Shown here piece after piece: positions 4,531 to 18,417 of a stretch of 25,113 nucleotides of DNA. The stretch covers positions 1-25,113 of the IMG/VR virus record IMGVR_UViG_3300027963_000316. One strand, given 5' to 3'. Positions within the stretch are counted from its first letter, which is position 1; each line of letters opens with the position of its first letter. Made by a program: the position numbers and the translations under genes. Origin of the DNA: a virus. The notes under the pieces were generated by a model, which saw only the letters and a list, made by a program, of their open reading frames with translations, was not told the DNA's origin and ran no database searches.

Positions 4531-4579
4531 ATTATGACAGACATTTCATTAAACGGCAACCTGTTGCCATTTTGCAACA
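4531..4579 (-). promoter_or_regulatory. cassette promoter module (minus strand) for the MoxR operon
   Basis: On the minus strand there is a perfect 6-bp inverted repeat TGTTGC/GCAACA (4562-4579), containing GTTG-N8-CAAC. It is followed after 3 nt by -35 TTGCCG (4559-4554), a 17-nt spacer and -10 CATAAT (4536-4531). This is the same layout as the plus-strand modules, except for one extra spacer base and no AACCTG. ATG 4502 lies about 22 nt beyond the expected start of transcription. Confidence 0.75.
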
Positions 4580-4640
4580 TTACCAAATTTTGTGTCAACT
4601 GGATTCTCTACCATGCGTTATATCTATGTCGCCGTTGCAA

Positions 4641-4736
4641 TTAAACAATACCCGCTACCAATAAGGTAACCACAAACAACCAACCGGCAATAATAAAACC
4701 CATTACAAATGAATCCGTTACTTTGGATTTATACAT
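4641..4736 (-). CDS. 31-aa single-span membrane micro-protein
   Basis: A short frame from ATG 4736 to TAA 4641. The ribosome binding site AAGGAAAAAAG is excellent and a module promoter lies just upstream. The peptide is MYKSKVTDSF followed by a hydrophobic stretch (VMGFIIAGWLFVVTLLVAGIV) that would span a membrane once, with the basic N-terminus inside. Function unknown; early single-span micro-proteins of phages often act on host membrane processes, but nothing here proves that. Promoter, ribosome binding site and hydrophobic composition together make it a likely real gene. Confidence 0.6.
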   Translation of the reverse strand: MYKSKVTDSFVMGFIIAGWLFVVTLLVAGIV

Positions 4737-4763
4737 CTTTTTTCCTTTTGTTAAGATATAATA

Positions 4764-4814
4764 ATAGTATACCAATTTGCTTTGGTAGTCAACCTTGTTG
4801 TTTCGGAACAACAA
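4764..4814 (-). promoter_or_regulatory. cassette promoter module (minus strand) for the 31-aa membrane gene
   Basis: The dyad here is the longest: a perfect 8-bp inverted repeat TTGTTGTT/AACAACAA (4795-4814, loop TCGG) containing GTTG-N8-CAAC at 4797-4812. Reading leftwards, a 4-nt gap is followed by -35 TTGACT (4792-4787), 17 nt and -10 TACTAT (4769-4764). The other side of the dyad abuts the late promoter of the kinase gene at 4816. Confidence 0.65.
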
Positions 4815-4815
4815 A

Positions 4816-4823
4816 TATAAATA
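4816..4823 (+). promoter_or_regulatory. T4-type late promoter TATAAATA
   Basis: An exact match to the T4 late promoter -10 octamer lies 23 nt before the kinase start codon and 1 nt after the 20-bp palindrome. In T4, gp55 and gp33 with the sliding clamp read this element during late transcription. The transcript would start near 4829 and include the ribosome binding site AAGGAG. Confidence 0.7.
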
Positions 4824-4846
4824 GTTGATCGGAACAAGGAGTTACC

Positions 4847-5566
4847 ATGTTAACATTCAAAGAATTTTTATCAGAAGGTGTACATGATCCGGCAAAGTTA
4901 AAAGCAATCTTTATTGCAGGTGGTCCAGGATCAGGAAAATCTCATGTTGTTAAACACGTTCGTGGTGATTTAGGATTTAAGATGGTCAATTCAGATGATG
5001 CATTTGAACATGGCATGAAAAAACATGGATTAAACCCTAAAATGCCTGAACATGAAGCAGAAAAAAGAGATAAAGTGCGTCAACGTGCAAAAGATATAAC
5101 TGCTAAAAAGGCACATTTATATCATAAAGGACGATTAGGCATGGTCATTGACGGAACAGGTAAAGACTTTCATGAAATACATAAAAAGTCTGAGCATCTA
5201 AAGTCATTAGGTTATGATACACATATGTTATATGTTAATACCTCATTAGATGTTGCACATAAAAGAAATAAGATGCGTGATAGATCGGTACCAGATCATG
5301 TTGTAACCAATTCATGGCATAAAGTACATGATAACATTGGTAAATTTCAAGACCATTTTGGTAAAAACAATTTTCATGTGATTGACAATTCAAAAGAAGG
5401 TGTCGATCATGATGCATTACATAAACTACATAAACACATTAGGCATATTGCATCGTCTGAAGTTAAAAATCCTCTTGGTAAAGATTGGATTAGACGCCAA
5501 CAAAGAAGTATTACAAAAGGCGAGCATAATCCATTAAATATGCCAAAAAAACAAAAAGCAGAATAG
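4847..5566 (+). CDS. zeta-toxin/AAA_33-like P-loop kinase with capsid-targeting-like N-terminus
   Basis: A 239-residue P-loop protein. Walker A is GGPGSGKS (25-32); NSDD follows near 48-51 and DGTGK near 102-106. Basic residues around 139-147 (KRNKMRDRS) suit the lid region. This pattern fits zeta-toxin-like or polynucleotide-kinase-like enzymes that phosphorylate a small molecule or nucleic acid end; the substrate is unknown. The first ten residues, MLTFKEFLSE, resemble the T4 internal-protein capsid-targeting peptide (MKTYQEFIAE). L-x-E at 8-10 fits the (L/I)-x-E cleavage rule of the prohead protease gp21. With the late promoter in front, this suggests a protein packed into the head. The C-terminus is basic and disordered (RRQQRSITKGEHN). 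P-loop family is firm; packaging is inference. Confidence 0.85.
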   Translation: MLTFKEFLSEGVHDPAKLKAIFIAGGPGSGKSHVVKHVRGDLGFKMVNSDDAFEHGMKKHGLNPKMPEHEAEKRDKVRQRAKDITAKKAHLYHKGRLGMVIDGTGKDFHEIHKKSEHLKSLGYDTHMLYVNTSLDVAHKRNKMRDRSVPDHVVTNSWHKVHDNIGKFQDHFGKNNFHVIDNSKEGVDHDALHKLHKHIRHIASSEVKNPLGKDWIRRQQRSITKGEHNPLNMPKKQKAE

Positions 5567-5633
5567 TTGTAAATACGCAACACTTTTGTTGTTTTCATAC
5601 AACAGTTGCCACTTGGTCCAAAACCTGTAGAAT
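5566..5633 (+). promoter_or_regulatory. cassette promoter module with two tandem perfect dyads
   Basis: Two GTTG-N8-CAAC dyads occupy 5566-5581 and 5588-5603, 22 bp apart. The second is extended to TGTTGT/ACAACA. After 2 nt come -35 TTGCCA (5606-5611), a 16-nt spacer ending AAACCTG and -10 TAGAAT (5628-5633). TGTTGTGAA follows in the transcribed start. The first dyad overlaps the kinase stop codon. Drives the four-gene cassette 5666-6715. Confidence 0.85.
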
Positions 5634-5665
5634 GGTCAATGTTGTGAATGAAACGAGACTTAAAT

Positions 5666-5950
5666 ATGTGGACTACTGAAAATCAAAACGAAATGGCTGC
5701 AGCCCTTAAACAATTGGTTGAGGATGAAGGCGCCGATTATGCTGCCGGTTATTTTGCAAGTACAATTGTTTCCATGTTGGCCAGTTTGCCAAAGCGTAAA
5801 CAAAAAGAAGAAATTAAAATGATTTTGCGGCATAATGCCGATTTTAAGGTTACTGTTAAAAACCTTATGACTGGTGATGAAATGAAAATTCGCCGTGGTG
5901 ACCGTGGCACTTGTGTGGATCCTAGTACCGAACGGTACTGGTCAATGTAA
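5666..5950 (+). CDS. small protein of unknown function, first gene of cassette 1
   Basis: Hypothetical, 94 aa from ATG 5666. An in-frame ATG at 5648 would add six residues, but it sits inside the conserved transcribed leader shared by the modules, so 5666 is preferred by comparison with the other cassettes. The N-terminal two thirds look alpha-helical (TENQNEMAAALKQLVEDEG, then a YFASTIVSMLASLPKRK amphipathic stretch). The C-terminus is beta-like and charged (GDEMKIRRGDRGTCVD). No known motif. Confidence 0.7.
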   Translation: MWTTENQNEMAAALKQLVEDEGADYAAGYFASTIVSMLASLPKRKQKEEIKMILRHNADFKVTVKNLMTGDEMKIRRGDRGTCVDPSTERYWSM

Positions 5951-5974
5951 TATAAACTGATAGGAAATTTTGTA

Positions 5975-6220
5975 ATGAAAACGTCTGAAATTAAAAAAGG
6001 TATGCGTATTAAACTTGCCAACGGTTGGTTTGGTACCATGAAAGACAATATGCGTGGCGTTACTCGCCTTGCCGAAGTGGAAGGGTATTATACGGAAACT
6101 GGATCCATTTACTCTTTTAACATTGTGTCTGTATGCGTCGATGGCGTATGGGATGCCGTACAATACACGGAAAAAGAATTGAAAGTCCGTGAAATGAATT
6201 TGAAACTTTTTGGAGTTTAA
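5975..6220 (+). CDS. small beta-rich protein of unknown function
   Basis: An 81-aa frame behind AGGAAA. The sequence (MRIKLANGWFGTMKDN, then VTRLAEVEGYYTETGSIYSF) alternates short strands and turns and looks like a small SH3-like or beta-barrel fold, but no named family is recognisable. It lies 24 nt after the previous gene and 2 nt before the next one, in the same cassette. Confidence 0.7.
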   Translation: MKTSEIKKGMRIKLANGWFGTMKDNMRGVTRLAEVEGYYTETGSIYSFNIVSVCVDGVWDAVQYTEKELKVREMNLKLFGV

Positions 6221-6222
6221 TA

Positions 6223-6420
6223 ATGACGCTTACTGAAGCTAAATCAATTCTTGGTAAAGCAATTGCCAATCTTGATGTTGACCCTAATATCTCTATGTGG
6301 GAAGCATTGGATAAACTTGAAACCGTAGGTGTAAAAAATCTGCGTAGTGATGTTTATACTGCGTATTGCATTATGTACGATGAATTGGCTGCGCAAAGTG
6401 GTTTCAATGGAGGTTATTAA
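6223..6420 (+). CDS. small helical protein of unknown function
   Basis: A 65-aa hypothetical with GGAG placed 7 nt before ATG, inside the end of the previous gene. It is predicted mainly helical (TLTEAKSILGKAIANLD; SDVYTAYCIMYDELAAQSG). It is translationally coupled to its neighbours and ends 1 nt before the next start. Confidence 0.65.
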   Translation: MTLTEAKSILGKAIANLDVDPNISMWEALDKLETVGVKNLRSDVYTAYCIMYDELAAQSGFNGGY

Positions 6421-6421
6421 A

Positions 6422-6715
6422 ATGAAAGGTATTTGTCCGGTTTGCAATGGCACTACGCGGATGCCTGTTGCTGAAGAGCATCAAGAATATAAGAGAATCT
6501 ATTCTGGTTATAATCCAGTTACCGATACACTTCCGTGCGATAATTGCGGTGGTCAATATATGTTTAGTTTACCAACAGGTGCAGTGTCATTGCGTCCTGA
6601 TGGTACGCCATGTAAACATGAATATAAATCCAAATCCGATTCGCGCTTTCGGTCATTACACATTTATAATTGCGTCCATTGCGATGATTTTTATGAGATT
6701 GATTCTGGCGATTAA
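6422..6715 (+). CDS. zinc-ribbon-like small protein
   Basis: A 97-aa protein starting at ATG 6422 behind GGAGG. Two CxxC knuckles stand near the N-terminus (CPVC at 5-8, CDNC at 39-42), and a C-terminal Cys/His set (PCKHEY, then NCVHC) could hold a second zinc. This resembles DnaJ-type or rubredoxin-like zinc ribbons that bind protein or nucleic acid. Last gene of the first cassette. Function unknown. Confidence 0.72.
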   Translation: MKGICPVCNGTTRMPVAEEHQEYKRIYSGYNPVTDTLPCDNCGGQYMFSLPTGAVSLRPDGTPCKHEYKSKSDSRFRSLHIYNCVHCDDFYEIDSGD

Positions 6716-6718
6716 AGT

Positions 6719-6786
6719 GTTGTGTGGAAGAGACAGAAGTGTTGCTTTACGGCAACACTTGCCGTTTCGCCTGGAACCTGTAGAAT
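6719..6786 (+). promoter_or_regulatory. cassette promoter module with upstream half-dyad
   Basis: The main dyad is a perfect 8-bp inverted repeat AGTGTTGC/GCAACACT (6738-6759) containing GTTG-N8-CAAC. -35 TTGCCG (6759-6764), a 16-nt spacer ending GGAACCTG and -10 TAGAAT (6781-6786) follow. A second GTTG with an imperfect right half (AGAC) sits exactly 22 bp upstream, at 6719-6734. Confidence 0.85.
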
Positions 6787-6793
6787 GGACTCC

Positions 6794-6934
6794 ATGATGA
6801 AAACGAACACAAAACCAATCGTCGGCAAAGTGCCGAAACCGTTCTGTCGGACGCCGATTAAACCTGGTGTCCGTCATACCATTAAAACCAAATACAATCG
6901 TAAACCTAAACATAAGGAAGTTTATTGTGGGTAA
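6794..6934 (+). CDS. 46-aa very basic protein, possibly leaderless mRNA
   Basis: A lysine/arginine-rich micro-protein (MMKTNTKPIVGKVPKPFCR... ending KHKEVYCG). Its ATG at 6794 (or 6797) falls within 1-2 nt of the transcription start predicted from the -10 at 6781-6786, and no ribosome binding site precedes it, so a leaderless transcript is plausible. The net charge suggests nucleic-acid binding. The stop overlaps the start of the next gene. No family recognised. Confidence 0.5.
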   Translation: MMKTNTKPIVGKVPKPFCRTPIKPGVRHTIKTKYNRKPKHKEVYCG

Positions 6935-7190
6935 AATGTCTGCATTGGCATTGGATATTGAAGAGTCACTTTGTGCCGGTGATGATGTCGGCGATATTGC
7001 CATTCGATACGGTGTTTCCGTTAATGATGTTCTTAATATTAAAGAACATATGATGGAATCAGATTTTGAAAATATGGATATTGAATTAGAAGATTATGAT
7101 GATTCAATGGATGGTGATTTTGATTCTGCTATGGCCTCTGCTGGTTATGGTACCGATGAGGACTATGGTTATTATGGTGATGATTATTAA
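6927..7190 (+). CDS. small protein with HTH-like N-terminus and acidic tail
   Basis: An 87-aa protein from GTG 6927 (GGAAG 6 nt upstream); ATG 6936 lacks a properly spaced site. Residues about 18-45 (AGDDVGDIAIRYGVSVNDVL) look like a helix-turn-helix of the kind that reads 'G.. .DIA..YG.S..DV'. The same pattern occurs in the proteins at 7405 and 10631. The C-terminal half is strongly acidic and Tyr/Gly-rich (DEDYGYYGDDY), resembling DNA-mimic or RNA-polymerase-binding tails. A regulator role is inference. Confidence 0.68.
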   Translation: MGKMSALALDIEESLCAGDDVGDIAIRYGVSVNDVLNIKEHMMESDFENMDIELEDYDDSMDGDFDSAMASAGYGTDEDYGYYGDDY

Positions 7191-7403
7191 ATGAAATATA
7201 TGAAGTATTGTTGGCCTAAAAAATTATATTACGTCTGTTGCCGTTGGATTGATTATCCCAATGGTGGTGGTCGTAATTTTATTGCTACCAAGCACTTAGG
7301 TCGTGCCCGTTACTATGCGAAACGATTGAAGTTGAAGAAAAGGCAGATTGATGTCCATATTCGCGGTGAAAAAGTGTATGTTTTAAAAAATAGTTGGTTA
7401 TAA
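7191..7403 (+). CDS. small basic protein of unknown function
   Basis: A 70-aa, strongly basic protein (net positive, many R/K/Y). It starts directly at the stop of the previous gene (TAA then ATG) and ends 1 nt before the next start. Visible pieces are CCRWIDYPNGGGRNFIA and RARYYAKRLKLKKRQIDVHI, the latter a long basic helix. Probably translated by coupling; a strong ribosome binding site is not seen. Confidence 0.65.
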   Translation: MKYMKYCWPKKLYYVCCRWIDYPNGGGRNFIATKHLGRARYYAKRLKLKKRQIDVHIRGEKVYVLKNSWL

Positions 7404-7404
7404 A

Positions 7405-7860
7405 ATGAAAAAGTCTTTTATTAAAGAGGTTCGATCCTTTGCGGATATGGGCTTTGACGTTGCAACAATCGCTACTAAACTTGGCAAACCCGTATTGGAA
7501 ATTTGCCAAGCAATTATGTTGATTGATACATTGCCGCCACCAAAGGTGAAACCAGTAAAGGTCGCAAAGAAAAAAACAGTTGCATCACCGCTTATTACTT
7601 TTCGCCCTCGCATTAAACGCAAAAAAACAATTGCTGACGTATTTACACCTGATGCATCAGAACAGGCAAAATCTAAAAGGTTTGTGGCAAAACCATATAA
7701 TGAGAATTTTCTAAAGTCTGTTGGTTTTGATTCAATGAATGATGCAGTAAAATATTTGAATGAGTTTAGTGGTACCACAATGCCTGCTAAAGATTGGGCA
7801 ATGGTCAATAAATTGTTTTTTGTAAAGTCTAATGGCACTATTGGGACAGTTGTATTATGA
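7405..7860 (+). CDS. 151-aa protein with HTH-like N-terminus and basic linker
   Basis: Residues 10-37 (SFADMGFDVATIATKLGKPV) show the same helix-turn-helix-like pattern as the proteins at 6927 and 10631. A basic, proline-rich linker follows (KVKPVKVAKKKTVASP...RIKRKKT). The C-terminal part (NENFLKSVGFDSMNDAVKYL) is helical. The layout, small HTH plus basic tail, suits a DNA-binding protein. The stop overlaps the next ATG by 4 nt (ATGA). No named family; regulatory role is inferred. Confidence 0.68.
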   Translation: MKKSFIKEVRSFADMGFDVATIATKLGKPVLEICQAIMLIDTLPPPKVKPVKVAKKKTVASPLITFRPRIKRKKTIADVFTPDASEQAKSKRFVAKPYNENFLKSVGFDSMNDAVKYLNEFSGTTMPAKDWAMVNKLFFVKSNGTIGTVVL

Positions 7861-8021
7861 ATAAATTTGATGAATGGTTTTATGAAACAGAAGGGTTTGG
7901 TGTTCGTGCCGAACGATTATTTGCTGATTTAGAATATGATGGTCGTAAATATGATCTTGTTGTTAAATGGTTAAAATCTGCATACCTAGTTGGTCGCGGC
8001 GATGATGAGGTTGAAGAATGA
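7857..8021 (+). CDS. 54-aa acidic small protein, unknown
   Basis: A frame from ATG 7857 (ATGA overlap with the previous stop) to TGA 8021. The sequence MNKFDEWFYETEGFGVRAERL... ends in an acidic run (GDDEVEE). Tight overlaps on both sides and cassette context support it as a real gene. Function unknown. Confidence 0.6.
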   Translation: MNKFDEWFYETEGFGVRAERLFADLEYDGRKYDLVVKWLKSAYLVGRGDDEVEE

Positions 8022-8188
8022 AAACACTAAAAGAATTAGTTGATATTGAAAAGTTTAAGGATTATCCGTCATGGGCAATACATGATGCCATTCGTAATAA
8101 AGAAATGAATGAGATTCAATTTCGAGAATGGGTAAATTATTTGGTAAGTGAATCGCAAAAGTATACAAATCAACCAAAAGAAGAATAG
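8018..8188 (+). CDS. 56-aa small protein, unknown
   Basis: ATG 8018 overlaps the previous stop (ATGA) and has GAGG 7 nt upstream. The protein (MKTLKELVDIEKFKDYPSWA... ending TNQPKEE) is helical and charged. Its TAG stop shares its last base with the dyad of the next promoter module. Last gene of its cassette. Confidence 0.62.
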   Translation: MKTLKELVDIEKFKDYPSWAIHDAIRNKEMNEIQFREWVNYLVSESQKYTNQPKEE

Positions 8189-8234
8189 TTGCCTAAAAAC
8201 AACACGTTGCTATTCTCCGCGGAACCTGTAGAAT
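8188..8234 (+). promoter_or_regulatory. cassette promoter module driving the tRNA cluster
   Basis: GTTG-N8-CAAC (8188-8203), a 3-nt gap, -35 TTGCTA (8207-8212), a 16-nt spacer ending GGAACCTG and -10 TAGAAT (8229-8234). The TGTTGTGA element follows (from 8240) although the transcript begins with tRNA genes, not a coding region. Confidence 0.82.
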
Positions 8235-8254
8235 AGATTTTGTTGTGATTTTTC

Positions 8255-8331
8255 GGGTCTATAACTCAATTGGTCAGAGTATCAGACTTTTAATCTGAGA
8301 GTTCCCGGTTCGAGTCCGGGTAGACCCACCA
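8255..8331 (+). tRNA. tRNA-Lys (anticodon TTT)
   Basis: A complete cloverleaf: acceptor GGGTCTA pairs with TAGACCC, D stem ACTC/GAGT, anticodon stem TCAGA/TCTGA around loop CTTTTAA (anticodon TTT), T arm with TTCGAGT, discriminator A, and encoded CCA. Decodes AAA and AAG, frequent codons in this AT-rich genome. Confidence 0.96.
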
Positions 8332-8335
8332 TATT

Positions 8336-8412
8336 GCCTTGATAGCTCATTAGGTTAGAGCACCGTCTTGATAAGGCGGTGGTGCCTGGTTCGAATCCAG
8401 GTCAAGGCACCA
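8336..8412 (+). tRNA. tRNA-Ile (anticodon GAT)
   Basis: Acceptor GCCTTGA pairs with TCAAGGC, D stem GCTC/GAGC, anticodon stem CCGTC/GGCGG (one G-T pair) around loop TTGATAA (anticodon GAT), T arm TTCGAAT, discriminator A and encoded CCA. It starts 4 nt after the tRNA-Lys CCA end. Confidence 0.96.
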
Positions 8413-8414
8413 TT

Positions 8415-8502
8415 GGATAGTTGGCAGAGTGGTTAATGCAACGGATTGCTAATCCGTCACCGAGAAATTGGTGCATAGGTTCGAATCCTATACTATCCGC
8501 CA
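8415..8502 (+). tRNA. tRNA-Ser (anticodon GCT)
   Basis: A class II tRNA with acceptor GGATAGT/ACTATCC, anticodon stem ACGGA/TCCGT around loop TTGCTAA (anticodon GCT), a long variable arm (CACCGAGAAATTGGTG), T arm TTCGAAT, discriminator G and encoded CCA. Decodes AGC and AGT. All three tRNAs should be processed from one transcript started near 8241. Confidence 0.95.
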
Positions 8503-8508
8503 AATTAT

Positions 8509-8555
8509 GTTGCGTGGAAACAACACGTTGCCATTTTCCACGGAACCTGTAGAAT
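8509..8555 (+). promoter_or_regulatory. cassette promoter module for the AAA ATPase cassette
   Basis: Dyad GTTG-N8-CAAC (8509-8524), -35 TTGCCA (8528-8533), a 16-nt spacer ending GGAACCTG and -10 TAGAAT (8550-8555), followed by GGACTC and TGTTGTGA. It starts 6 nt after the tRNA-Ser CCA end. Confidence 0.87.
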
Positions 8556-8587
8556 GGACTCTGTTGTGAGATTTTTTGGAAGTTGTT

Positions 8588-9484
8588 ATGATTGATGTTA
8601 AGTTTGTTGGTGGTAAATATATTGCTGTTATTGATGGCAAAACCGTGAAGCGTACAAAAAAAGAGCATATGGATTATGTAATCCGCCAAGCGACTAAAGG
8701 CAAAACCACATTGGCCGCGGCCGTTATTGCGGCACCCGTAGAATCCAAGTTTACTATTAACCAACGATTCGGATTCGTATCGGATATGGTTATGATGTTG
8801 TCCAAAGGCGATCAAGCATCCGTTATCGTTACGGGTCCTGGTGGTCTTGGCAAGTCCTTTACAGTTACCAAGGCATTGTCCGATTCTGGACTCAAGGATG
8901 TTTCCGTCCTTGATGATTATGAGGTCGGCTCTGTTTTGAATTCTAAAAAGACTTTCCGTGTCATTAAAGGTTATTCTACACCAAAAGGTTTGTATCGTAC
9001 CCTTTACGAGAATCGTGATTCTGTAATTGTATTTGATGATTGTGATTCTGTATTGCGTGATCCTGTGTCCTTGAATCTACTCAAAGGTGCATTAGATTCT
9101 TATTCGCGCCGTATTATTTCATGGCGTGCCGATTTCAAAGATGAGGATTTGCCTAATTGTTTTGAATTCAAAGGGCGAGTAGTCTTTATTTCCAATCTTC
9201 CTTCCCATGCAATGGATCAGGCTGTTATCACTCGGTCAATGACAGTTGATTTGACAATGACCAATCAACAAAAGGTCGAGCGTATGTTCTATTTGTTGGA
9301 TCAAAAAGACTTTATGCCTGAATACGAAATGACATTCAAACAAGATGCAATGCGTCTGATTGAAAAGTTGCAAGATTCAGTCAAAGAATTGTCATTGCGT
9401 ACTTTGATTCAAGTTACTAAAATTCGTAAGGCAAATGCCAATAACAATTGGGAAAACCTTGCAGAATATGTTCTGACCAATTAA
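8588..9484 (+). CDS. AAA-family ATPase of phage type
   Basis: A 298-aa P-loop ATPase starting at ATG 8588 behind GGAAG (6 nt). Walker A is GPGGLGKS (83-90), Walker B SVIVFDDCD (145-153), sensor 1 VFISN (199-203), with a likely arginine finger at R216 (VITRSM). The N-terminal 60 residues begin with a small beta unit (VKFVGGKYIAVIDGKTVKR). It is not close to the MoxR protein: Walker motifs and spacing differ. Such proteins could load or remodel nucleic-acid or protein complexes; the substrate is unknown. First gene of its cassette, 9 nt before a lipoprotein gene. Confidence 0.85.
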   Translation: MIDVKFVGGKYIAVIDGKTVKRTKKEHMDYVIRQATKGKTTLAAAVIAAPVESKFTINQRFGFVSDMVMMLSKGDQASVIVTGPGGLGKSFTVTKALSDSGLKDVSVLDDYEVGSVLNSKKTFRVIKGYSTPKGLYRTLYENRDSVIVFDDCDSVLRDPVSLNLLKGALDSYSRRIISWRADFKDEDLPNCFEFKGRVVFISNLPSHAMDQAVITRSMTVDLTMTNQQKVERMFYLLDQKDFMPEYEMTFKQDAMRLIEKLQDSVKELSLRTLIQVTKIRKANANNNWENLAEYVLTN

Positions 9485-10089: not shown

Positions 10090-10327
10090 TTTGAAAACAG
10101 AATTACAAGACCAAATTAAAATACGCCAAAACCAATGGGATGCCGGAGAATATCCGCATCCCGAGTCCGTATTTCATGCGTCCATGGAATCAGATAATGC
10201 ACTATTGTCAATGCTGTTGCGTTCTAACAACGAAACTGTTGCCAAAAAACGACAGGTTGCCGTTTCGGCAGAAACCTGTACAATGGACTCCATGGTGAAA
10301 ACGAAGCGAAAACCCAAAGCAAAATGA
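10082..10327 (+). CDS. 81-aa protein whose 3' end contains a promoter module
   Basis: ATG 10082 overlaps the previous stop by 8 nt. The first 50 residues are helical and acidic (LKTELQDQIKIRQNQWDAG). From about residue 50 the frame reads through the dyads, -35 and -10 of the next module and ends at TGA 10327, overlapping the next gene by 4 nt. The C-terminal third is thus dictated by promoter sequence, so the original protein was probably shorter and was extended or fused when the module arrived. Function unknown. Confidence 0.6.
   Translation: MPDLKTELQDQIKIRQNQWDAGEYPHPESVFHASMESDNALLSMLLRSNNETVAKKRQVAVSAETCTMDSMVKTKRKPKAK
10216..10284 (+). promoter_or_regulatory. cassette promoter module with tandem dyads, inside a coding frame
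   Basis: A perfect GTTG-N8-CAAC at 10216-10231 and a second dyad at 10238-10253 (right half CGAC) are 22 bp apart. -35 TTGCCG (10257-10262), a 16-nt spacer ending AAACCTG and -10 TACAAT (10279-10284) follow. An ATG lies at 10292, within 1-2 nt of the expected transcript start. Confidence 0.82.
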
Positions 10328-10548
10328 TATCAATTCTTGAAAAGTACCTTGTAACGGATGGCAAATTTGTTGCCGTTTATTCTAATATTCCAATTGAATT
10401 TTTGAATCAATTTCGGGATTTTTATGGTTCTAAGTATCGTATTCGGTATCGTGGACCACGGAAACATCGTATTGCTTCCTACTATAACCGGTCTGGTACT
10501 TGCCTGAAGCGGGATGCTAGGACCTTTTCGGTGTACCGGCAAGCGTGA
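10324..10548 (+). CDS. 74-aa basic protein, unknown
   Basis: ATG 10324 overlaps the previous stop (ATGA). The protein has a beta-rich start (ISILEKYLVTDGKFVAVYSN) and an R/Y/K-rich C-terminus (KYRIRYRGPRKHRIASYY). It is the only clear gene between two modules. Its TGA stop is 2 nt before the next dyad. No known family. Confidence 0.63.
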   Translation: MISILEKYLVTDGKFVAVYSNIPIEFLNQFRDFYGSKYRIRYRGPRKHRIASYYNRSGTCLKRDARTFSVYRQA

Positions 10549-10550
10549 AT

Positions 10551-10596
10551 GTTGCGTCCGTGCAACACTTGCCGTTCCGCCTGGAACCTGTAGAAT
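10551..10596 (+). promoter_or_regulatory. cassette promoter module, close to consensus
   Basis: TGTTGC/GCAACA dyad (10550-10567) with GTTG-N8-CAAC, -35 TTGCCG (10569-10574), a 16-nt spacer ending GGAACCTG and -10 TAGAAT (10591-10596). GGACTC and TGTTGTGAACG follow. The spacer itself holds a perfect GTTCC/GGAAC dyad, starting on the last base of the -35. Confidence 0.88.
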
Positions 10597-10630
10597 GGAC
10601 TCTGTTGTGAACGAAAACGAAGGAAAAAAC

Positions 10631-10834
10631 GTGTCGAAAGTGAATTATACAGTTTATTGCTCGGATGTTGCGGATGCCTTTGATTGTGGTTGGTCACCCG
10701 AGGATGTTGCATCGGTGTTTAAACTTGAATTGAAGGATGTCTTGTCTTTTTATGACGATTATATTGATGCCTATATGGCCCATGTTGTTGCCGATGCTGA
10801 TATTCAGCGCGGTTTTGATGATTACCGGGAGTAA
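10631..10834 (+). CDS. 67-aa protein with HTH-like core
   Basis: GTG 10631 is the best start: GAAGGA lies 6 nt upstream and it follows the conserved leader. The core (FDCGWSPEDVASVFKLELKDVL) matches the helix-turn-helix-like pattern of the proteins at 6927 and 7405. The C-terminus is acidic. The frame is also open upstream through the promoter module, which explains longer possible translations. Likely a small regulator; unproven. Confidence 0.66.
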   Translation: MSKVNYTVYCSDVADAFDCGWSPEDVASVFKLELKDVLSFYDDYIDAYMAHVVADADIQRGFDDYRE

Positions 10835-12654: not shown

Positions 12655-12686
12655 AATTTTACAAAAAGGTGATGGAAATGTCAAGT

Positions 12687-12732
12687 GTTGCGTGGAAACA
12701 ACGGTTGCCTTTCCGTCCGGTTTCTGTAGAAT
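12687..12732 (+). promoter_or_regulatory. cassette promoter module
   Basis: GTTG-N8-CAAC (12687-12702), a 2-nt gap, -35 TTGCCT (12705-12710), a 16-nt spacer and -10 TAGAAT (12727-12732), followed by GGACTC and TGTTGTGAACG. The spacer ends GGTTTCTG rather than GGAACCTG, the most divergent spacer among the TAGAAT copies. Confidence 0.85.
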
Positions 12733-12769
12733 GGACTCTGTTGTGAACGAAAACGAACAGGAAATCGAA

Positions 12770-13742: not shown

Positions 13743-13743
13743 A

Positions 13744-13977
13744 ATGTTGCAAGCCGTATTGATTGATAAAGAAATGGTTAATTATCATTTTTCGAAAAAA
13801 GAATTGTTGGATATTGCAAATTTGCATGATGATTGGGCATTTGGTCCTCGCCGTGCTTATGCGTATTATATTGGACGGGATCCGGATGATACTGCCGGTA
13901 TTAAGACTGAGGATGTAGAGGACTTTATAATTCAATTTTATACCCAATTTAATGCGGAGTTTGGACTAACGTATTGA
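13744..13977 (+). CDS. 77-aa small protein, unknown
   Basis: ATG 13744 is preferred because AAGGAAAA lies just upstream; an in-frame ATG at 13729 would add five residues. The protein (MLQAVLIDKEMVNYHFSKK... FGPRRAYAYYIGRDPDD) is mixed alpha/beta with no known motif. Last gene of its cassette; its stop is 1 nt before the next dyad. Confidence 0.68.
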   Translation: MLQAVLIDKEMVNYHFSKKELLDIANLHDDWAFGPRRAYAYYIGRDPDDTAGIKTEDVEDFIIQFYTQFNAEFGLTY

Positions 13978-13978
13978 T

Positions 13979-14026
13979 GTTGTTTCCAGGCAACATGGTT
14001 GCTTTTTGCCTGGACTAGTGTATAAT
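13979..14026 (+). promoter_or_regulatory. cassette promoter module with TATAAT -10
   Basis: ATGTTG/CAACAT dyad (13977-13996) with GTTG-N8-CAAC, a 4-nt gap, -35 TTGCTT (13999-14004), a 16-nt spacer and a perfect -10 TATAAT (14021-14026). Spacer and leader differ from the consensus (no AACCTG, no TGTTGTGA), while dyad and spacing are kept. Confidence 0.8.
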
Positions 14027-14060
14027 TATTCCTGAAGTCGAGAAAAACGAAGGAAATTTG

Positions 14061-14816
14061 ATGAAATTGCTAACTGCTCCTGTCGGTAATCCAAAGGTCG
14101 CCAAAGGTTTGGCATCCAATTATGCCACTTATATTCTGCACCTTGCACCCGCAAATTTGTCGGGTTATGAGGTTTGTGCTAAACGAACCATCGGTTGCAC
14201 CGATGCTTGTTTAAACCTCGCTGGTCGTGGTGGTATGTTTAAGCGTGGTGAAACCACCAATGTTATTCAGCAAGCGCGAATCCGCAAGACCAAATTGTTT
14301 TTTGAGGATCGTGCCGAGTTTATGCGCCTTTTGGTTGCTGATATTGAATTGGCAATTAAGCAAGCGGCGAAGAAAGGTTTTACTCCTGTTTTCCGTCTTA
14401 ACGGTACCTCTGACATTGCATGGGAAAAGTATCCCGTTATTCGCAATGGTGTATCGTTTATGAATATCTTCCATGCGTTTTCGGATTGCATTTTCTATGA
14501 TTACACCAAGATTCTTGGTCGTAAAATCAATTTGGTTACCAATTACAGTCTGACCTTTTCTGCCGCTGATGGCAATGATGCCGCCGTGTCAAAGGCAATT
14601 GCACAAGGTTATAATGTTGCGGTTGTTTTTGGTATCAAAAAAGGTTCTGCATTCCCAGAATCGTATCTCGGTCTGCCCGTGTTTAATGGTGATGATTCCG
14701 ACTTGCGGTTTCTTGACCCTAAAAATGTTATTGTTGGTCTTTATGCCAAGGGTAAGGCAAAGACTGATACCACTGGTTTTGTAAAGTACCCAACCATTAT
14801 GTTAAAGGCTGCTTGA
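14061..14816 (+). CDS. GP88-family phage protein
   Basis: A 251-aa protein starting at ATG 14061 behind GAAGGA. The start MKLLTAPVGNPKVAKG, the cysteine block VCAKRTIGCTDACLNLAGRG (37-56) and PVFRLNGTSDIAWEKYP (113-129) match the phage 'gene product 88' family known from mycobacteriophages and many others. Its biochemical function is unknown. The three spaced cysteines may bind a metal, as the RLNGTSD strand and the Cys block recall a TIM-barrel radical enzyme-like layout, but that is speculation. Length is normal for the family. Confidence 0.8.
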   Translation: MKLLTAPVGNPKVAKGLASNYATYILHLAPANLSGYEVCAKRTIGCTDACLNLAGRGGMFKRGETTNVIQQARIRKTKLFFEDRAEFMRLLVADIELAIKQAAKKGFTPVFRLNGTSDIAWEKYPVIRNGVSFMNIFHAFSDCIFYDYTKILGRKINLVTNYSLTFSAADGNDAAVSKAIAQGYNVAVVFGIKKGSAFPESYLGLPVFNGDDSDLRFLDPKNVIVGLYAKGKAKTDTTGFVKYPTIMLKAA

Positions 14817-14818
14817 TT

Positions 14819-14977
14819 ATGCGTTATGTTGTTCGTTGTGTTAATGATCATAAATTGTTATGGTCGAATGATGAAGGTTATACCGATTCAGATAATTTTG
14901 AGGTATATACTGCCGAGGAAACCGAAATGTTTGGTTTGCCTCTTGAAGGTGAATGGGTAGAATTGGTAACATTATAA
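14819..14977 (+). CDS. 52-aa acidic small protein
   Basis: ATG 14819 follows the previous stop by 2 nt and runs to TAA 14977. Sequence MRYVVRCVNDHKLLWSND... GEWVELVTL is acidic with beta character. Function unknown. Confidence 0.58.
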   Translation: MRYVVRCVNDHKLLWSNDEGYTDSDNFEVYTAEETEMFGLPLEGEWVELVTL

Positions 14978-15008
14978 ACATTGCTATTTAATTTAAAGGA
15001 AATATATT

Positions 15009-15506
15009 ATGCCTAATTGGTGTTCAAATTGTGTTACGATCAAGTCTGATGATAAAGAATTGATGGCGAAAGTTATTGCCGCTGCTGAATCCTCAAGCGA
15101 GAATGATTTTTTTAGTAAATTTGTTCCTATGCCTGAATCTGAGAGTGATTGGTATGGTTGGAATGTAACCAATTGGGGCACCAAGTGGGATACCGGTGTT
15201 AATATTGTTGATCAATCCGATACTGAAATTGTGTTATCTTTTGATACTGCGTGGTCACCACCAATTGCATTTTATATGGCATTGGAAGAGATGGGTTATG
15301 AGGTAGAGGTTTATTATTATGAACCTGGTATGGGTTTTGCCGGCATATATCGTGATGGTAATGATGATTATTATGAGTATGCAGGATTTACTTCGGATGA
15401 AATATTAGAAATGTTACCATCAGAATTAGATGAAACATTTTTCATTTCTGAATCTGTTGCCGAATGGGAAGAGGAAAATAAAGAGGAAGAGGAGGAGGAC
15501 GAATAA
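15009..15506 (+). CDS. Api92/DUF1281-like ferredoxin-fold protein with acidic tail
   Basis: A 165-aa protein beginning MPNWCSNCVTI, followed by WYGWNVTNWGTKWD (48-61) and FDTAWSPPIAF (78-88). These blocks mark the Api92-like/YubB family found on phages and plasmids, thought to have a ferredoxin-like fold. The last 15 residues are nearly all Glu/Asp (EENKEEEEEDE). AAAGGAAAT precedes the start. Function of the family is unclear; the acidic tail may be a protein-interaction or DNA-mimic element. Confidence 0.82.
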   Translation: MPNWCSNCVTIKSDDKELMAKVIAAAESSSENDFFSKFVPMPESESDWYGWNVTNWGTKWDTGVNIVDQSDTEIVLSFDTAWSPPIAFYMALEEMGYEVEVYYYEPGMGFAGIYRDGNDDYYEYAGFTSDEILEMLPSELDETFFISESVAEWEEENKEEEEEDE

Positions 15507-15507
15507 T

Positions 15508-15708
15508 ATGTACCAATTGCATAAAACCAATTCTGTTGTTGGGTGGGTGCCATTGGACTATATTGATATTTTAACGATTAAGTCTGCATTAATTGCTTAT
15601 AAGATGAATGGTAATAGTCCGGATATGGACAAGTTAGAATCAGGTGATATTTCTTTCATTAATTCTATTCAATCTATTATTAATCGAATCCAATCATTGG
15701 AACAATAG
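15508..15708 (+). CDS. 66-aa small helical protein
   Basis: Starts at ATG 15508, 1 nt after the previous stop, with GAGGAGG inside the acidic-tail codons as ribosome binding site. Sequence MYQLHKTNSVVGWVPLDYID... helical end (SIQSIINRIQSLEQ). Function unknown. Confidence 0.65.
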   Translation: MYQLHKTNSVVGWVPLDYIDILTIKSALIAYKMNGNSPDMDKLESGDISFINSIQSIINRIQSLEQ

Positions 15709-15747
15709 AGTGGTGGATTATAGTGTGGATGCATGGAACGGGCAATT

Positions 15748-15794
15748 GTTGTATAGGAACAACAGGTTGCCTTTTCCGCGCTAACCTGTATAAT
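15748..15794 (+). promoter_or_regulatory. cassette promoter module with TATAAT -10
   Basis: TGTTGT/ACAACA dyad (15747-15764) with GTTG-N8-CAAC, a 3-nt gap, -35 TTGCCT (15767-15772), a 16-nt spacer ending TAACCTG and -10 TATAAT (15789-15794). The leader has CCATGGTGAACG in place of TGTTGTGAACG. Confidence 0.85.
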
Positions 15795-15825
15795 GGTATC
15801 CATGGTGAACGAAACGGAACAGAAA

Positions 15826-16074
15826 ATGCACAAAGCGATGCGTATTGGTGATATTGTCAAGTCTTTTGACTTCAATGGTATTGACAATTGTTTTATTATT
15901 GGTAAGGTAGTTGGTATTTTTGAAACCGATGGTACTTTCCGTGCCAAGTTTATTAAACGGGTATGGGAAGGGCAAGAGGAGAAAAAATCCAATACGGATT
16001 ATTTTACCGCGCCGTTGCAGGGGCATTGTTTTATGGACAATCCTAAATCGCCCCGTGTTATTGTTATTGCTTAA
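15826..16074 (+). CDS. 82-aa small beta-rich protein
   Basis: ATG 15826 is chosen with GGAACAG upstream. ATG 15802 is in frame, lies at the predicted transcript start, and would give a leaderless, eight-residue-longer form. The protein (MRIGDIVKSFDFNGIDNC... IIGKVVGIFETDGTFRAKFI) looks like a small SH3-like barrel. Function unknown. Confidence 0.68.
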   Translation: MHKAMRIGDIVKSFDFNGIDNCFIIGKVVGIFETDGTFRAKFIKRVWEGQEEKKSNTDYFTAPLQGHCFMDNPKSPRVIVIA

Positions 16075-16087
16075 TAGGATTTTAATA

Positions 16088-16321
16088 ATGAATGTCGTCG
16101 AATTGAAAATCGTCACCCTTCGAAAGATGATGGCTGATGTTGATCGGATTGATCCTTCTTCCGAAGAGTATAAATCTTTGGTCCAGTTCCTTAATCGCCA
16201 ATCGATGGATACTCTTAAGGCGCTTGAATCGGCCAAGATTAAGTGGGTTTCCGCGCTTGCGCGGAATCGCATTAATCGGATTAAATTTGCGATGAAAAAC
16301 CTTTCTGAAATGCCTGTTTAA
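16088..16321 (+). CDS. 77-aa basic helical protein
   Basis: ATG 16088 with AGGA upstream. All-helical, basic sequence (ELKIVTLRKMMADVDRIDP; SALARNRINRIKFAMKNL). Lies between two short genes of the same cassette. Function unknown; possibly nucleic-acid binding by charge. Confidence 0.66.
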   Translation: MNVVELKIVTLRKMMADVDRIDPSSEEYKSLVQFLNRQSMDTLKALESAKIKWVSALARNRINRIKFAMKNLSEMPV

Positions 16322-16333
16322 TTGGTGATTATA

Positions 16334-16519
16334 ATGGATGATTTTGATTATTTTCCGTTTGTTTCTGGTGATGATTTGGAAGCGCGTGATGCATGGTTTG
16401 AAAATGGTTGTCCATGTATTGACGATATAGAATATGCTGATGGTGTTGATGACCCGAATTATGTTGTAACGGGTTGCAATGACGATTGGTATGATGACCA
16501 ATATGAGATTGGAGAATAA
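16334..16519 (+). CDS. 61-aa very acidic protein
   Basis: Starts at ATG 16334; the frame is open a little further upstream but without ATG. The protein is dominated by Asp/Glu/Tyr (DDFDYFPFVSGDDLEARD; ADGVDDPNY; DDWYDDQYEIGE). Such strongly acidic phage micro-proteins can mimic DNA, but there is no direct evidence here. Confidence 0.62.
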   Translation: MDDFDYFPFVSGDDLEARDAWFENGCPCIDDIEYADGVDDPNYVVTGCNDDWYDDQYEIGE

Positions 16520-16523
16520 TGTA

Positions 16524-16694
16524 ATGGATTTTTTAATTCGTGCCCAACGATATACTGAAGCACGTGGTGATGAAAATTTCTTTCGTCATTATTACACCAT
16601 GTACCGTGAACATTATTCCGTAAATGAAAGTGTTCGAAAAACGATTGCATGGTTATATGATGATGATGTTGCAGACTTATTGGAGTTTCAATAA
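16524..16694 (+). CDS. 56-aa small protein
   Basis: ATG 16524 behind GGAG. Sequence MDFLIRAQRYTEARGDENFF... ends ADLLEFQ; helical, mixed charge. Its stop overlaps the start of the next gene (TAATG). Function unknown. Confidence 0.64.
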   Translation: MDFLIRAQRYTEARGDENFFRHYYTMYREHYSVNESVRKTIAWLYDDDVADLLEFQ

Positions 16695-16772
16695 TGGATA
16701 AAGTAATTCGTGATGGTAAAGTGGCAGTATTGTATTCACCTGGACAAGGTGTTGGTTGGTATTCTTGGCATG
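16694..16772 (+). repeat. direct repeat copy A (start of paralog 1)
   Basis: The first 79 nt match 17193-17271 at 74 positions, including a perfect run of 38 nt. This points to a recent tandem duplication. Confidence 0.85.
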
Positions 16773-17002
16773 ATATAAATGAATTAATGTATGATCCAAT
16801 TGTAGTCGATATGGTAGAACGAAAAGAACCTGCCAATGTTATTGAATCTTATTGTGAAGAAAAGTATGGTGACCATTATTTCGGTGGTGCGAAAGATTTA
16901 CAAGTAGAATGGATTCCAATTGGAACTAAATTCCGCATTGCCGAATATGATGGTGAATCAATTGAGTATTGCGATGAAACGAACTGGGAGGAGTTTCAAT
17001 AA
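16694..17002 (+). CDS. 102-aa protein, paralog 1 of a tandem pair
   Basis: The protein begins MDKVIRDGKVAVLYSPGQG and contains GWYSWHDINELMYDP and IPIGTKFRIAEYDG. It is clearly paralogous to the protein at 17193: about 74 of the first 79 nt are identical, and the similarity continues at protein level to the end. This is an atypical family, unknown in function, which I recall from T4-like phages as short aromatic proteins. Overlaps both neighbours by TAATG. Confidence 0.74.
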   Translation: MDKVIRDGKVAVLYSPGQGVGWYSWHDINELMYDPIVVDMVERKEPANVIESYCEEKYGDHYFGGAKDLQVEWIPIGTKFRIAEYDGESIEYCDETNWEEFQ

Positions 17003-17193
17003 TGGCGTATACCGTATTCCAACATACCGAATTGCAGAAGTCCTATTCCAAAGTGAAAGGTCTAGAGGGACCATTTCATTATGCTAATGGAATGACTCTG
17101 TATTATGATCCAAAAGAAGGTAAGTATTGGAATCCAAAGTCTGATATGTTCCTTGAGTATGATGATTATATTTTTATTAGAGGTGGTGTATAA
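17002..17193 (+). CDS. 63-aa aromatic small protein between the two paralogs
   Basis: ATG 17002 overlaps the previous stop and its own stop overlaps the next start. Sequence: MAYTVFQHTELQKSYSKVKG... YYDPKEGKYWNPKSDMFLEY, Tyr/Trp/Lys rich. It sits between the duplicated genes, so the duplication unit may have included it once. Function unknown. Confidence 0.66.
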   Translation: MAYTVFQHTELQKSYSKVKGLEGPFHYANGMTLYYDPKEGKYWNPKSDMFLEYDDYIFIRGGV

Positions 17194-17271
17194 TGGAAAA
17201 AGTAATTCGTGATGGTAAAGTGGCAGTATTGTATTCGCCTGGATATGGTGCTGGTTGGTATTCTTGGCATG
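17193..17271 (+). repeat. direct repeat copy B (start of paralog 2)
   Basis: Partner of the repeat at 16694-16772; offset 499 bp. Confidence 0.85.
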
Positions 17272-17504
17272 GTGAAGAAAAATTATTGTATGATCCCGTT
17301 GTCGTTGGTATGATAGAATCGAAAAATCATTACAATGAAATTATAGAATATTGTCAATCGATTTATGGTGATAACCGATGCTTTTCAGGTGCTGAAGATT
17401 TAACCATTGAATGGATCGATATTGGCCGTGAATTTCGAATTGATGAATATGATGGATCAGAATATATTGAATATAAGGATGATTTAGAATGGCACGTCGC
17501 ATGA
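17193..17504 (+). CDS. 103-aa protein, paralog 2 of a tandem pair
   Basis: Begins MEKVIRDGKVAVLYSPGYG with GWYSWHGEEKLLYDP and IDIGREFRIDEYDG, matching paralog 1 in order and spacing. Divergence is concentrated in the middle (residues 45-70), as expected after a duplication with relaxed or shifted selection. Its end overlaps the next gene by 16 nt. Confidence 0.74.
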   Translation: MEKVIRDGKVAVLYSPGYGAGWYSWHGEEKLLYDPVVVGMIESKNHYNEIIEYCQSIYGDNRCFSGAEDLTIEWIDIGREFRIDEYDGSEYIEYKDDLEWHVA

Positions 17505-17761
17505 CAAAGCGATATATTACGAAAGATGATATAGTTGATGTATTGGTTGATCGGGCGCATAAGGTATTATCGGATGATGTTTCGATTTATTCTGTGCATG
17601 AGTTTAATCGGACATTGATTGAGTTGGTAGTAAAAGAATGTGCCGATATTGCACGCCGTGAAATACTAATGTTCAACAATTCTGTTCCATACAATGGTAA
17701 AGTCTTAATAGAAGAAGCAATATATAAACACTTCAATATGGTAAATGAAAGTGATGCGTAA
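17489..17761 (+). CDS. 90-aa small phage protein, paralog of the gene at 13338
   Basis: ATG 17489 with AAGGA upstream; ATG 17501 (ATGA overlap) is the alternative. The core LIELVVKECADIARRE and end EEAIYKHFNM match the small helical family seen at 13338 (LIVNECC, IKEHFGV). The N-terminus is basic (ARRMTKRYITKDD). Function unknown. Confidence 0.72.
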   Translation: MARRMTKRYITKDDIVDVLVDRAHKVLSDDVSIYSVHEFNRTLIELVVKECADIARREILMFNNSVPYNGKVLIEEAIYKHFNMVNESDA

Positions 17762-17852
17762 TATAAATCCACTCGATGTTGCATTAGCTATTTTTATTTG
17801 CGTGTCCTCATTTACTATATTAAACGCAATTGCTGATGCATTGTGTCGTTAA
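17754..17852 (+). CDS. 32-aa single-span membrane micro-protein
   Basis: A frame from ATG 17754, overlapping the previous gene by 8 nt, to TAA 17852. MRNINPLDV is followed by a hydrophobic span (ALAIFICVSSFTILNAIA) and a short tail DALCR. Ribosome binding site weak; support comes from overlap and composition. Function unknown. Confidence 0.45.
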   Translation: MRNINPLDVALAIFICVSSFTILNAIADALCR

Positions 17853-17879
17853 TGTAATAATACAACAAAAAGGATTAAC

Positions 17880-18065
17880 ATGGAAGAAAATCAATTAAAA
17901 GAGTACAATGTAATCATGTTTAAAGAAATGTGGCACGTTGGTGATAAAGAATCACCACAATTAACTATGTTTGTGATATCTGCTAAAGATATCGATGATG
18001 TAAAAAGACAAGCATTAGAGAAATATCCAAATGGACGTGTAGCAGATATTAAATTGAAAGAATAG
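17880..18065 (+). CDS. 61-aa small protein
   Basis: ATG 17880 behind AAAGGA. Sequence MEENQLKEYNVIMFKEMWHVG... SAKDIDDVKRQALEKYPNGRV: a short alpha/beta unit; the C-terminal half recalls small sequence-tolerant 'ISAKDxxxAxxxALEKYP' phage peptides. Last gene before the long non-coding gap. Function unknown. Confidence 0.66.
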   Translation: MEENQLKEYNVIMFKEMWHVGDKESPQLTMFVISAKDIDDVKRQALEKYPNGRVADIKLKE

Positions 18066-18349
18066 TGTAAAAAAGTGTATTTATGTGCAAAAAAGTGTCG
18101 CGGTATATGTCGCGGTGTAACGTATCTGTAATGCTAATTGCAATTTAAATGAGAATTGTTTACGTTTTATTGTGTTAATACAGCGTTAATATGGTGAAAC
18201 ATTGCGTTATATTGGAATATATTAGATTATATTGGAAATTATATCCCACTTAGTCTTTGCCCACAATACCGCAATTTCCGCAATAAACCCGCAATAAATC
18301 TCGCAATATAACCTAATATTATATAATATAACCACATAAGGTATACTGT
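18066..18349. other. AT-rich non-coding gap
   Basis: No gene with usable ribosome binding site was found here. Visible structure: two AAAAAAGTGT copies and two GTCGCGGT copies at 18067-18117, a direct repeat TATATTGGAA at about 18208-18237, four CGCAAT boxes and several TATA-rich tracts. It separates the long plus-strand gene run from the last cassette. Confidence 0.6.
18270..18307 (+). repeat. four CGCAAT boxes with near-helical spacing (iteron-like)
   Basis: CGCAAT occurs at 18270, 18279, 18290 and 18302 (steps of 9, 11 and 12 bp), and once inverted (ATTGCG) at 18201. The array lies between AT-rich tracts. Such clustered boxes recall origin iterons or operator arrays. Origin function is a hypothesis. 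Confidence 0.5.
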
Positions 18350-18417
18350 GTTGTTTTTCTGAGACATTTCTGTTGTTTTTCTGCAACGATTGACAAGTAT
18401 ACCATAACCTGTAGAAT
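18350..18417 (+). promoter_or_regulatory. cassette promoter module with upstream half-dyad
   Basis: GTTG-N8-CAAC at 18372-18387, a 2-nt gap, -35 TTGACA (18390-18395), a 16-nt spacer ending ATAACCTG and -10 TAGAAT (18412-18417). A second GTTG with an imperfect right half (AGAC) lies 22 bp upstream at 18350-18365, within a direct repeat of TGTTGTTTTTCTG. Confidence 0.82.

Follow-up and report, generated by a model that had tools for sequence, protein, structure and literature searches.

In phage phi29, the small protein p4 acts upstream of a strong early promoter, which it represses via the alpha subunit of RNA polymerase. In PeSL cassettes of T4-type phages, an early promoter is reportedly joined to a stem-loop terminator (Arbiol 2010, Comeau 2014, as cited in PMC4503421). 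The early promoters of T4 itself are very strong host-sigma-70 promoters of early genes that hold information at -40 to -60 (PMC2988021), but they carry A/T-rich UP elements and no operator, and T4 modifies the polymerase (MotA/AsiA, Alt, ModA); neither ModA nor AsiA explains the stop of early transcription, a strategy that a review calls unknown (PMC2988021). Here, we describe a symmetric element, the dyad GTTG-N8-CAAC, that lies upstream of 12 sigma-70-type promoters in IMG/VR record IMGVR_UViG_3300027963_000316, a stretch of 25,113 bases with the gene content of a T4-like phage (hereafter the window, meaning the whole stretch). Its promoters resemble the T4 early promoters as very strong and apparently early host-sigma-70 promoters with information in the same region, and differ from them in that the stop of early transcription would fall to a symmetric operator and, probably, to a winged-helix protein.

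Upon comparing the window with these systems, we found partial likeness to each. The proposed regulator, a protein of 123 amino acids (aa), would resemble phi29 p4 as a small phage repressor upstream of a strong early promoter, but p4 has an unrelated fold and operator, and phi29 has one such region as against about a dozen operators per genome here. With PeSL cassettes, the window shares repeated sigma-70 promoter modules, apparently of the early type, among accessory genes, whereas the place of the terminator is taken by a protein operator that forms a poor hairpin and has no T-run. Folds were weak, plus-strand T-runs and covariation were not found, and the sole terminator-like match over a dyad (6760-6737, minus strand) faces away from the plus-strand gene that lies upstream; as the terminator stem-loop is missing, the module is not a PeSL. 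The preliminary description of the window, made from its letters, had named PeSL as the nearest concept, which is a fair comparison for the spread of copies but not for the terminator part. T4-type middle promoters, in which a MotA box at -30 replaces the -35, were likewise not found, a -35 of TTGACN or TTGCNN form being present at all 12 window promoters. For the marine T4-like methylophage Melnitz, early promoters were predicted with a general tool, and the available part of that paper reports no such site (PMC9004378); in the uncultured freshwater relatives called Far-T4, T4 core genes for transcription regulation were not detected (PMC4360716). The literature that we searched contained no description of the site. 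We suggest, with a probability of roughly 0.5, that the dyad is the operator of early genes, which an autoregulated 123-aa winged-helix protein binds and represses.

The dyad and its promoters

The window contains 13 exact dyads, all within 4563-18387 and none elsewhere in its 25,113 nucleotides (nt), together with a one-mismatch copy at 10238. A first-order Markov model of the window gave an expectation of 0.45 and a maximum of 3 in 300 runs. GTTG/CAAC was the commonest dyad with 4-base arms across all arms and spacers of 0-20, and it was enriched at spacer 8 only (13 copies, against 0-3 at each other spacer up to 30). Hence, the promoter/operator module of the preliminary description is real, and all 12 dyad coordinates that it listed are correct; its count of 12 applies to the promoters, while the dyads number 14, since the exact dyads at 5566 and 10216 had been missed. 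Each precedes the listed dyad of its promoter by exactly 22 bp, so that two of the promoters have tandem dyads. Between dyad and TTG lie 2-4 nt, as had been described, and the hexamer spacer is 16 nt in all plus-strand copies; the 17 nt given for the minus strand holds at 4578 but is the poorer fit at 4812 (Table 1). From the hexamer positions (-10 at -12 to -7, 16-nt spacer, a 2-nt offset giving -44.5), we deduce that the dyad is centred at around -44.5 to -46.5, in agreement with the proposed location near -45, upstream of the transcribed region. The expectation that dyads are commoner upstream of promoters than elsewhere was borne out as well: a promoter followed 2-8 nt after 224 dyad orientations versus 0 of 96 reversed-dyad controls (hexamers at >=4/6 and >=5/6), with offsets partly ascertained by the search patterns.

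Over 229 distinct modules, the consensus reads TGTTGY-WT-N2-AW-RCAACA, in which the flanking T-1 (86%) and A16 (91%) lengthen the two-fold symmetry beyond the 4-base arms. The covariation earlier claimed at position 5 disappeared in this larger set: positions 5/12 were T-A in 111, C-A in 49, T-G in 49 and C-G in 16, as for independent choice (chi-square p = 0.46), where some modules had been drawn by a pattern demanding Y/R at 5/12 that left their combination free. Each half-site therefore appears to be read on its own. Positions 6/11 were anti-paired (TT 67, AA 66, AT 23, TA 18; p 8e-12), the site centre being an A-tract or a T-tract, and as RNA the dyads folded weakly and unevenly, at -0.8 to -5.2 kcal/mol. 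As the half-sites are independent, positions 6/11 anti-paired and the RNA fold weak, and as the dyads lie upstream of the transcript start, these data point to a dimeric protein on double-stranded DNA, i.e., to a two-half-site protein operator and not a hairpin. A covarying stem was ruled out by the independence at 5/12, the anti-pairing at 6/11 and the weak folding. Among 19 distinct dyad pairs closer than 60 bp, a distance of 22 bp, or two helical turns, was the commonest (six pairs). Across modules, the promoter begins 2-8 nt past the dyad (a range partly ascertained, as the searches demanded 1-5 or 2-8 nt), with a preferred offset of 2-3 in the window, 4 in contigs G073, G070 and G071, and 7 in G068. 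The -35 and -10 are near consensus, which the search patterns partly required, and the dyad centre lies at -44 to -51 across phages, not at -41.5 or -61.5.

At two operators, we also observed promoter-like hexamers on the minus strand, namely TTGACA-17-TAAAAT at 12684 (dyad 12687-12702) and TTGCCC-17-TATAAT at 15745 (dyad 15748-15763). With hexamers on both sides, one operator could serve divergent promoters, and such cases occur in G039 as well. Past the -10, several modules have sequence in common (5606-5660, 6759-6815, 8528-8585, 10569-10625 and 12705-12760; GGACTCTGTTGTGAAcGAAAACGAA), which may be either a conserved initial transcribed region or a trace of cassette copying.

A conserved regulon in T4-like phages

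The module is not peculiar to this phage. In viral_contigs (IMG/VR), a scan of related phages with a strict pattern (GTTGY-N6-RCAAC, 2-8 nt, TTGACA, 15-18 nt, TATAAT) matched at least 120 stretches versus 1 with the dyad arms exchanged, and a pattern modelled on the window matched 38; these environmental records are contigs, and many loci are kin by descent, so that counts are not independent. Outside the search pattern, we found 15 additional dyads in 46 kb of G039, 13 in 43 kb of G001 and 11 in 20 kb of G036, with 0-2 in reversed controls, while a position weight matrix detected 16, 13, 15 and 14 operators in G039, G001, G073 and G071, as compared to 0-0.3 in shuffled sequence. Operators are clustered in dyad-rich contigs, as they are in the window, and dyad-bearing contigs encode T4-type replication genes (DNA polymerase, UvsX, clamp loader). 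In G073, UvsX is apparently split by an intein-like stretch that ends in ...HHYILEDGTVSHNS (L296:14176-16295). Isolates without the 123-aa protein were devoid of operators, with counts no higher than in controls (HTVC008M 0, DLP6 1 and S-CAM1 2, versus 2, 5 and 2), nor did we find an operator excess in Limnohabitans phage DC31 or other GP88-bearing isolates. A nucleotide search of the module against sequenced phages gave no convincing match (three at E 2-6).

To define the genes behind the operator, we scored operators within 260 nt upstream of each gene family at 99 loci that had been drawn by means of the 123-aa protein or the VWA peptidase rather than by dyads. Against a rate of 6.8% for all genes, an operator preceded rIIA (identified by phrog_612) at 11 of 12 loci, two small families at 11/14 and 8/11, the family of window gene 22081-22416 at 10/15, the NrdC.10-like ATPase at 12/21, GP88 at 4/10 and the VWA peptidase at 4/14, as well as the 123-aa winged-helix gene at 21/55 and cobS at 15/52; in other large families, the counts were 0/84, 0/43, 0/42 and 0/37. 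The GP88-gene operator (13979..13994) is kept at the same gene in L012, L026, L029 and L140. Thus, the same symmetric site stands beside several sigma-70 promoters far above chance and before orthologous genes in divergent genomes; the same genes are preceded by the operator in divergent T4-like phages, which constitutes a conserved regulon. A restriction of the module to the accessory region, as first described, does not hold, as relatives carry the operator before rIIA, cobS, the VWA peptidase and other conserved genes. In T4, rIIA is an early gene, and it is mainly by this analogy that we call the operator-bearing promoters probably early. The tRNA genes Lys-TTT (8255), Ile-GAT (8336) and Ser-GCT (8415) appear to be regulon members, since they are flanked by operator-promoters within 8188-8524.

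The 123-aa protein and competing explanations

The minus-strand module at 4563-4578 precedes cobS and then the gene of the 123-aa protein (2970-3341), which has 375 relatives in viral_contigs. Neither tblastn against 50,697 sequenced phage records nor sequence searches of Pfam, PHROG and PDB gave a match, the latter above cut-offs. An AlphaFold2 model computed with 54 relatives predicts helices H9-19, H25-31 and H39-54 followed by strands E58-63 and E66-72, with pLDDT mostly >90, i.e., the helix-helix-helix-strand-strand order of a winged helix-turn-helix. The nearest solved fold was the BirA N-terminal domain (Z 8.3, root-mean-square deviation 2.5, 66 aligned), followed by PadR, PerR and OmpR-type folds, where a Z near 8 would indicate a common arrangement only. 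Judged by this model, the protein would represent a new, unclassified winged-helix family. At 55 distinct loci that were drawn by the protein and not by dyads, and that had enough upstream DNA, an operator lay 60-170 nt upstream of the gene in 25 (chance 1.6%), and either there or 1.2-1.65 kb upstream, before cobS, in 34 (chance 8.2%). The gene belongs to the regulon, as that of an autoregulator would. Other regulon members are linked to operators equally, so that this link does not single out the 123-aa protein, whereas its predicted fold does. We also drew 20 T4-like records by UvsX, irrespective of dyads and of the 123-aa protein: three encode the protein and have 8, 6 and 8 strict sites, while the other 17 have 0-5, corresponding to densities of 7.0 versus 1.5 per 100 kb (p 0.006), with the protein-bearing records being longer. 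The closest isolates have neither the protein nor the operators. Taken with the predicted fold, these data make the 123-aa protein the best candidate for the operator binder.

Several observations weigh against this assignment and the repression that we propose. In G071, 9 strict sites occur over 110 kb, yet we recognised no member of the 123-aa family there, although this contig is probably incomplete, as cobS and the VWA peptidase are missing too; the shorter fragments G039, G036, G043, G064 and G480 are also dyad-bearing without a member. Conversely, several large protein-bearing records have at most 5 strict sites (G495 one), and G506 and G508 encode the protein with zero strict sites in 75 and 66 kb. 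More typically, a repressor overlaps the -35 or -10, so a protein bound only upstream must act via the alpha subunit or DNA bending. Finally, an HTH_39 (PF14090) protein is encoded directly after cobS in G067 and G006 as well as in records without the 123-aa family, and it could be a competing, second-choice binder. The phage HTH_39 proteins are like the 123-aa family in predicted fold and often adjoin cobS, but PF14090 did not match window 2970-3341 and was not among the families listed for the 54 relatives, and the similarity is seen in profile-profile comparison only (hhalign 79%, P 1.6e-5). The 123-aa family stands outside PF14090 and the PHROGs and, unlike HTH_39, does not occur in operator-free isolates; HTH_39 is the weaker candidate because it is found in the operator-free HTVC008M and DLP6. 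A further DNA-binding candidate, the 51-aa SpoVT/AbrB (MazE-type) protein at 21741-21896 (minus strand; PF04014, phrog_661), occurs in most T4-like records here and has no special link to operators, making it less likely as a binder. No obvious toxin partner was seen for it.

In the mechanism that we propose, a dimer of the 123-aa protein would recognise one TGTTGY half-site on each side of the A/T-rich 6-bp centre, with its two recognition helices on the same face of the DNA, separated by about one helical turn, and at some promoters a second dimer would sit 22 bp, two turns, upstream. The site would span about -53 to -37, where the alpha C-terminal domains of RNA polymerase would touch an UP element, leaving the -35 free. 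Since the -35 and -10 are near consensus, the promoters should fire without help, and at the onset of infection they would do so with the host polymerase. The winged-helix protein would then build up from its own operator-controlled unit and fill all copies, upon which the early genes and its own gene would be turned down. Negative autoregulation with early shut-off would fit best, where we infer the sign of the effect from sequence features. Somewhat short of even odds, we also suggest that a large, uncultured T4-like clade uses a dedicated autoregulated winged-helix repressor at about a dozen UP-region operators, a temporal switch that would be new for T4-type phages.

Alternatively, a host DNA-binding protein may read the site, such that phages of shared freshwater hosts evolved operators either to sense the state of the host or to use a host activator. 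The occurrence of the site in many divergent phages, including fragments in which the candidate protein was not seen, would agree with this, as would the excess of strict sites over reversed controls in Burkholderiales (35 versus 2 in 399 genomes). Yet these are at most two sites per genome, at unrelated genes and mostly of a different subtype (TGTTGCATNNATGCAACA), although the true hosts may lie elsewhere, and isolates of related phages do not carry the site, so that we consider a host factor unlikely. A host regulon in the 399 Burkholderiales genomes was rejected, the sites being scattered single sites at unrelated genes; the TGTTGCATNNATGCAACA-like sites, at L266-L293, number one or two in each genome and in some cases precede genes of outer-membrane porins. 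Across GTDB genomes, the strict scan gave 28 matches, three of which look like phage contigs in bins and six of which represent the same orthologous promoter, upstream of an NtrB-like kinase gene in Planctomycetes. At the latter (L124, L126, L130, L131, L133 and L135), GTTGYYTTTTTGCAAC is followed after 6-8 nt by TTGACA, 17-18 nt and TATAAT before the sensor kinase gene; here, the same dyad is used independently in cells.

Rather unlikely, too, is that the 123-aa protein activates, recruiting the host polymerase, perhaps in competition with the host, via sigma region 4 or the alpha C-terminal domain from about -45. All copies do lie upstream of the -35, within reach of the alpha C-terminal domain and sigma, and the offset is near-constant within one phage. 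Hexamers so near consensus, however, should make help needless; from one phage to another, the offset shifts by as much as 5 nt (half a helical turn) without sites being lost in compensation; and the centre falls at neither -41.5 nor -61.5. The preliminary description had offered a class II activator or a blocking operator, of which the blocking operator is favoured, whereas class II fits poorly because the centre (-44.5 to -51) is off the -41.5 expected over a poor -35, the -35 is intact and the offset varies by half a turn. It is improbable that the module is mainly a PeSL-type recombination cassette that shuffles accessory genes, with the dyad as a stem-loop. The window modules are alike beyond the promoter (ACCTGTAGAATGGACTCTGTTGTGAA), as dispersed copies would be, and they separate short blocks of ORFans, but the half-sites are fixed while the inner bases vary without covariation, the folds are weak with no T-run toward the upstream gene, and the site is retained before orthologous core genes such as rIIA; cassette spread does not exclude operator function. 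Least probable is a lineage-specific UP element read by the host alpha C-terminal domain with no separate regulator. The position at -53 to -37 and the A-tract or T-tract centre would suit it, and T4 early promoters have UP elements there (PMC2988021). Near-invariant four-base arms in strict two-fold symmetry are unlike an UP element, however; only a minority of promoter-like sites carry the dyad (e.g., 12 of 72 in G073), and it is limited to a subset of genes.

Window context and significance

The T4-like markers of the window are NrdB, a CobS-like ATPase (phrog_249), a large VWA 'peptidase' (phrog_459), an NrdC.10-like ATPase and a GP88-family gene; at ~35% identity, the VWA protein has isolate relatives in cyanophages, Pelagibacter phages and a few further isolates. 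Between ~5 and 19 kb, the window has positive GC skew and mostly short plus-strand open reading frames of no assigned function. A search for known RNA families in the window returned the three tRNAs and no others. Three small accessory proteins (6867-7190, 7405-7860 and 10514-10834) share, by eye, a helix-turn-helix-like stretch (IAxxxGxsxxxV), with no family match above cut-offs. The promoter of a 408-aa gene (2150-2262, minus strand; TTGACA at 2192) has a half operator only (GGCAACA), and an apparent homologue in L145 has a full operator, making operator loss at the orthologous promoter possible.

Table 1. Operators, associated promoters and selected genes of the window
Feature	Position	Strand	Remarks
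Winged-helix protein, 123 aa, proposed operator-binding regulator	2970..3341	minus	AlphaFold2 fold, 375 relatives, operator in own transcription unit
CobS-like AAA ATPase	3357..4502	minus	first gene after operator 4563-4578; phrog_249 E 7.5e-108
Operator dyad, cobS + winged-helix gene unit	4563..4578	minus	TTGCCG 4559, CATAAT after 17 nt
Operator dyad, second minus-strand promoter	4797..4812	minus	TTGACT 4792; 15 nt to TATACT fits better than 17
Upstream operator of tandem pair	5566..5581	plus	exact dyad, 22 bp before 5588
Operator dyad + promoter	5588..5603	plus	TTGCCA 5606 / TAGAAT
Operator dyad + promoter	6741..6756	plus	TTGCCG 6759 / TAGAAT
Operator dyad + promoter, upstream of three tRNA genes	8188..8203	plus	TTGCTA 8207 / TAGAAT
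Operator dyad + promoter, upstream of NrdC.10-like ATPase	8509..8524	plus	TTGCCA 8528 / TAGAAT
NrdC.10-like AAA ATPase (phrog_1250)	8588..9484	plus	regulon gene; operator at 12/21 relatives
Upstream operator of tandem pair	10216..10231	plus	exact dyad, 22 bp before 10238
Operator dyad, one mismatch (CGAC), + promoter	10238..10253	plus	TTGCCG 10257 / TACAAT
Operator dyad + promoter	10551..10566	plus	TTGCCG 10569 / TAGAAT
Operator dyad + promoter	12687..12702	plus	TTGCCT 12705 / TAGAAT
Operator dyad + promoter, upstream of GP88-family gene	13979..13994	plus	TTGCTT / TATAAT
GP88-family gene (PF17338)	14058..14816	plus	regulon gene
Operator dyad + promoter	15748..15763	plus	TTGCCT 15767 / TATAAT
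Operator dyad + promoter	18372..18387	plus	TTGACA 18390 / TAGAAT
Degenerate operator, one mismatch	23157..23172	minus	29 nt upstream of promoter-like TTGACC 23127 / TAGAAT

The candidate protein is small and lends itself to tests in vitro, and the specificity of the operator consensus suffices to pick out likely early genes, many of them ORFans, in metagenomic phage genomes. Overall, uncultured T4 relatives seem to use a simple genetic switch at early-type promoters, which, if true, would offer a possible model for early shut-off in relatives of T4.

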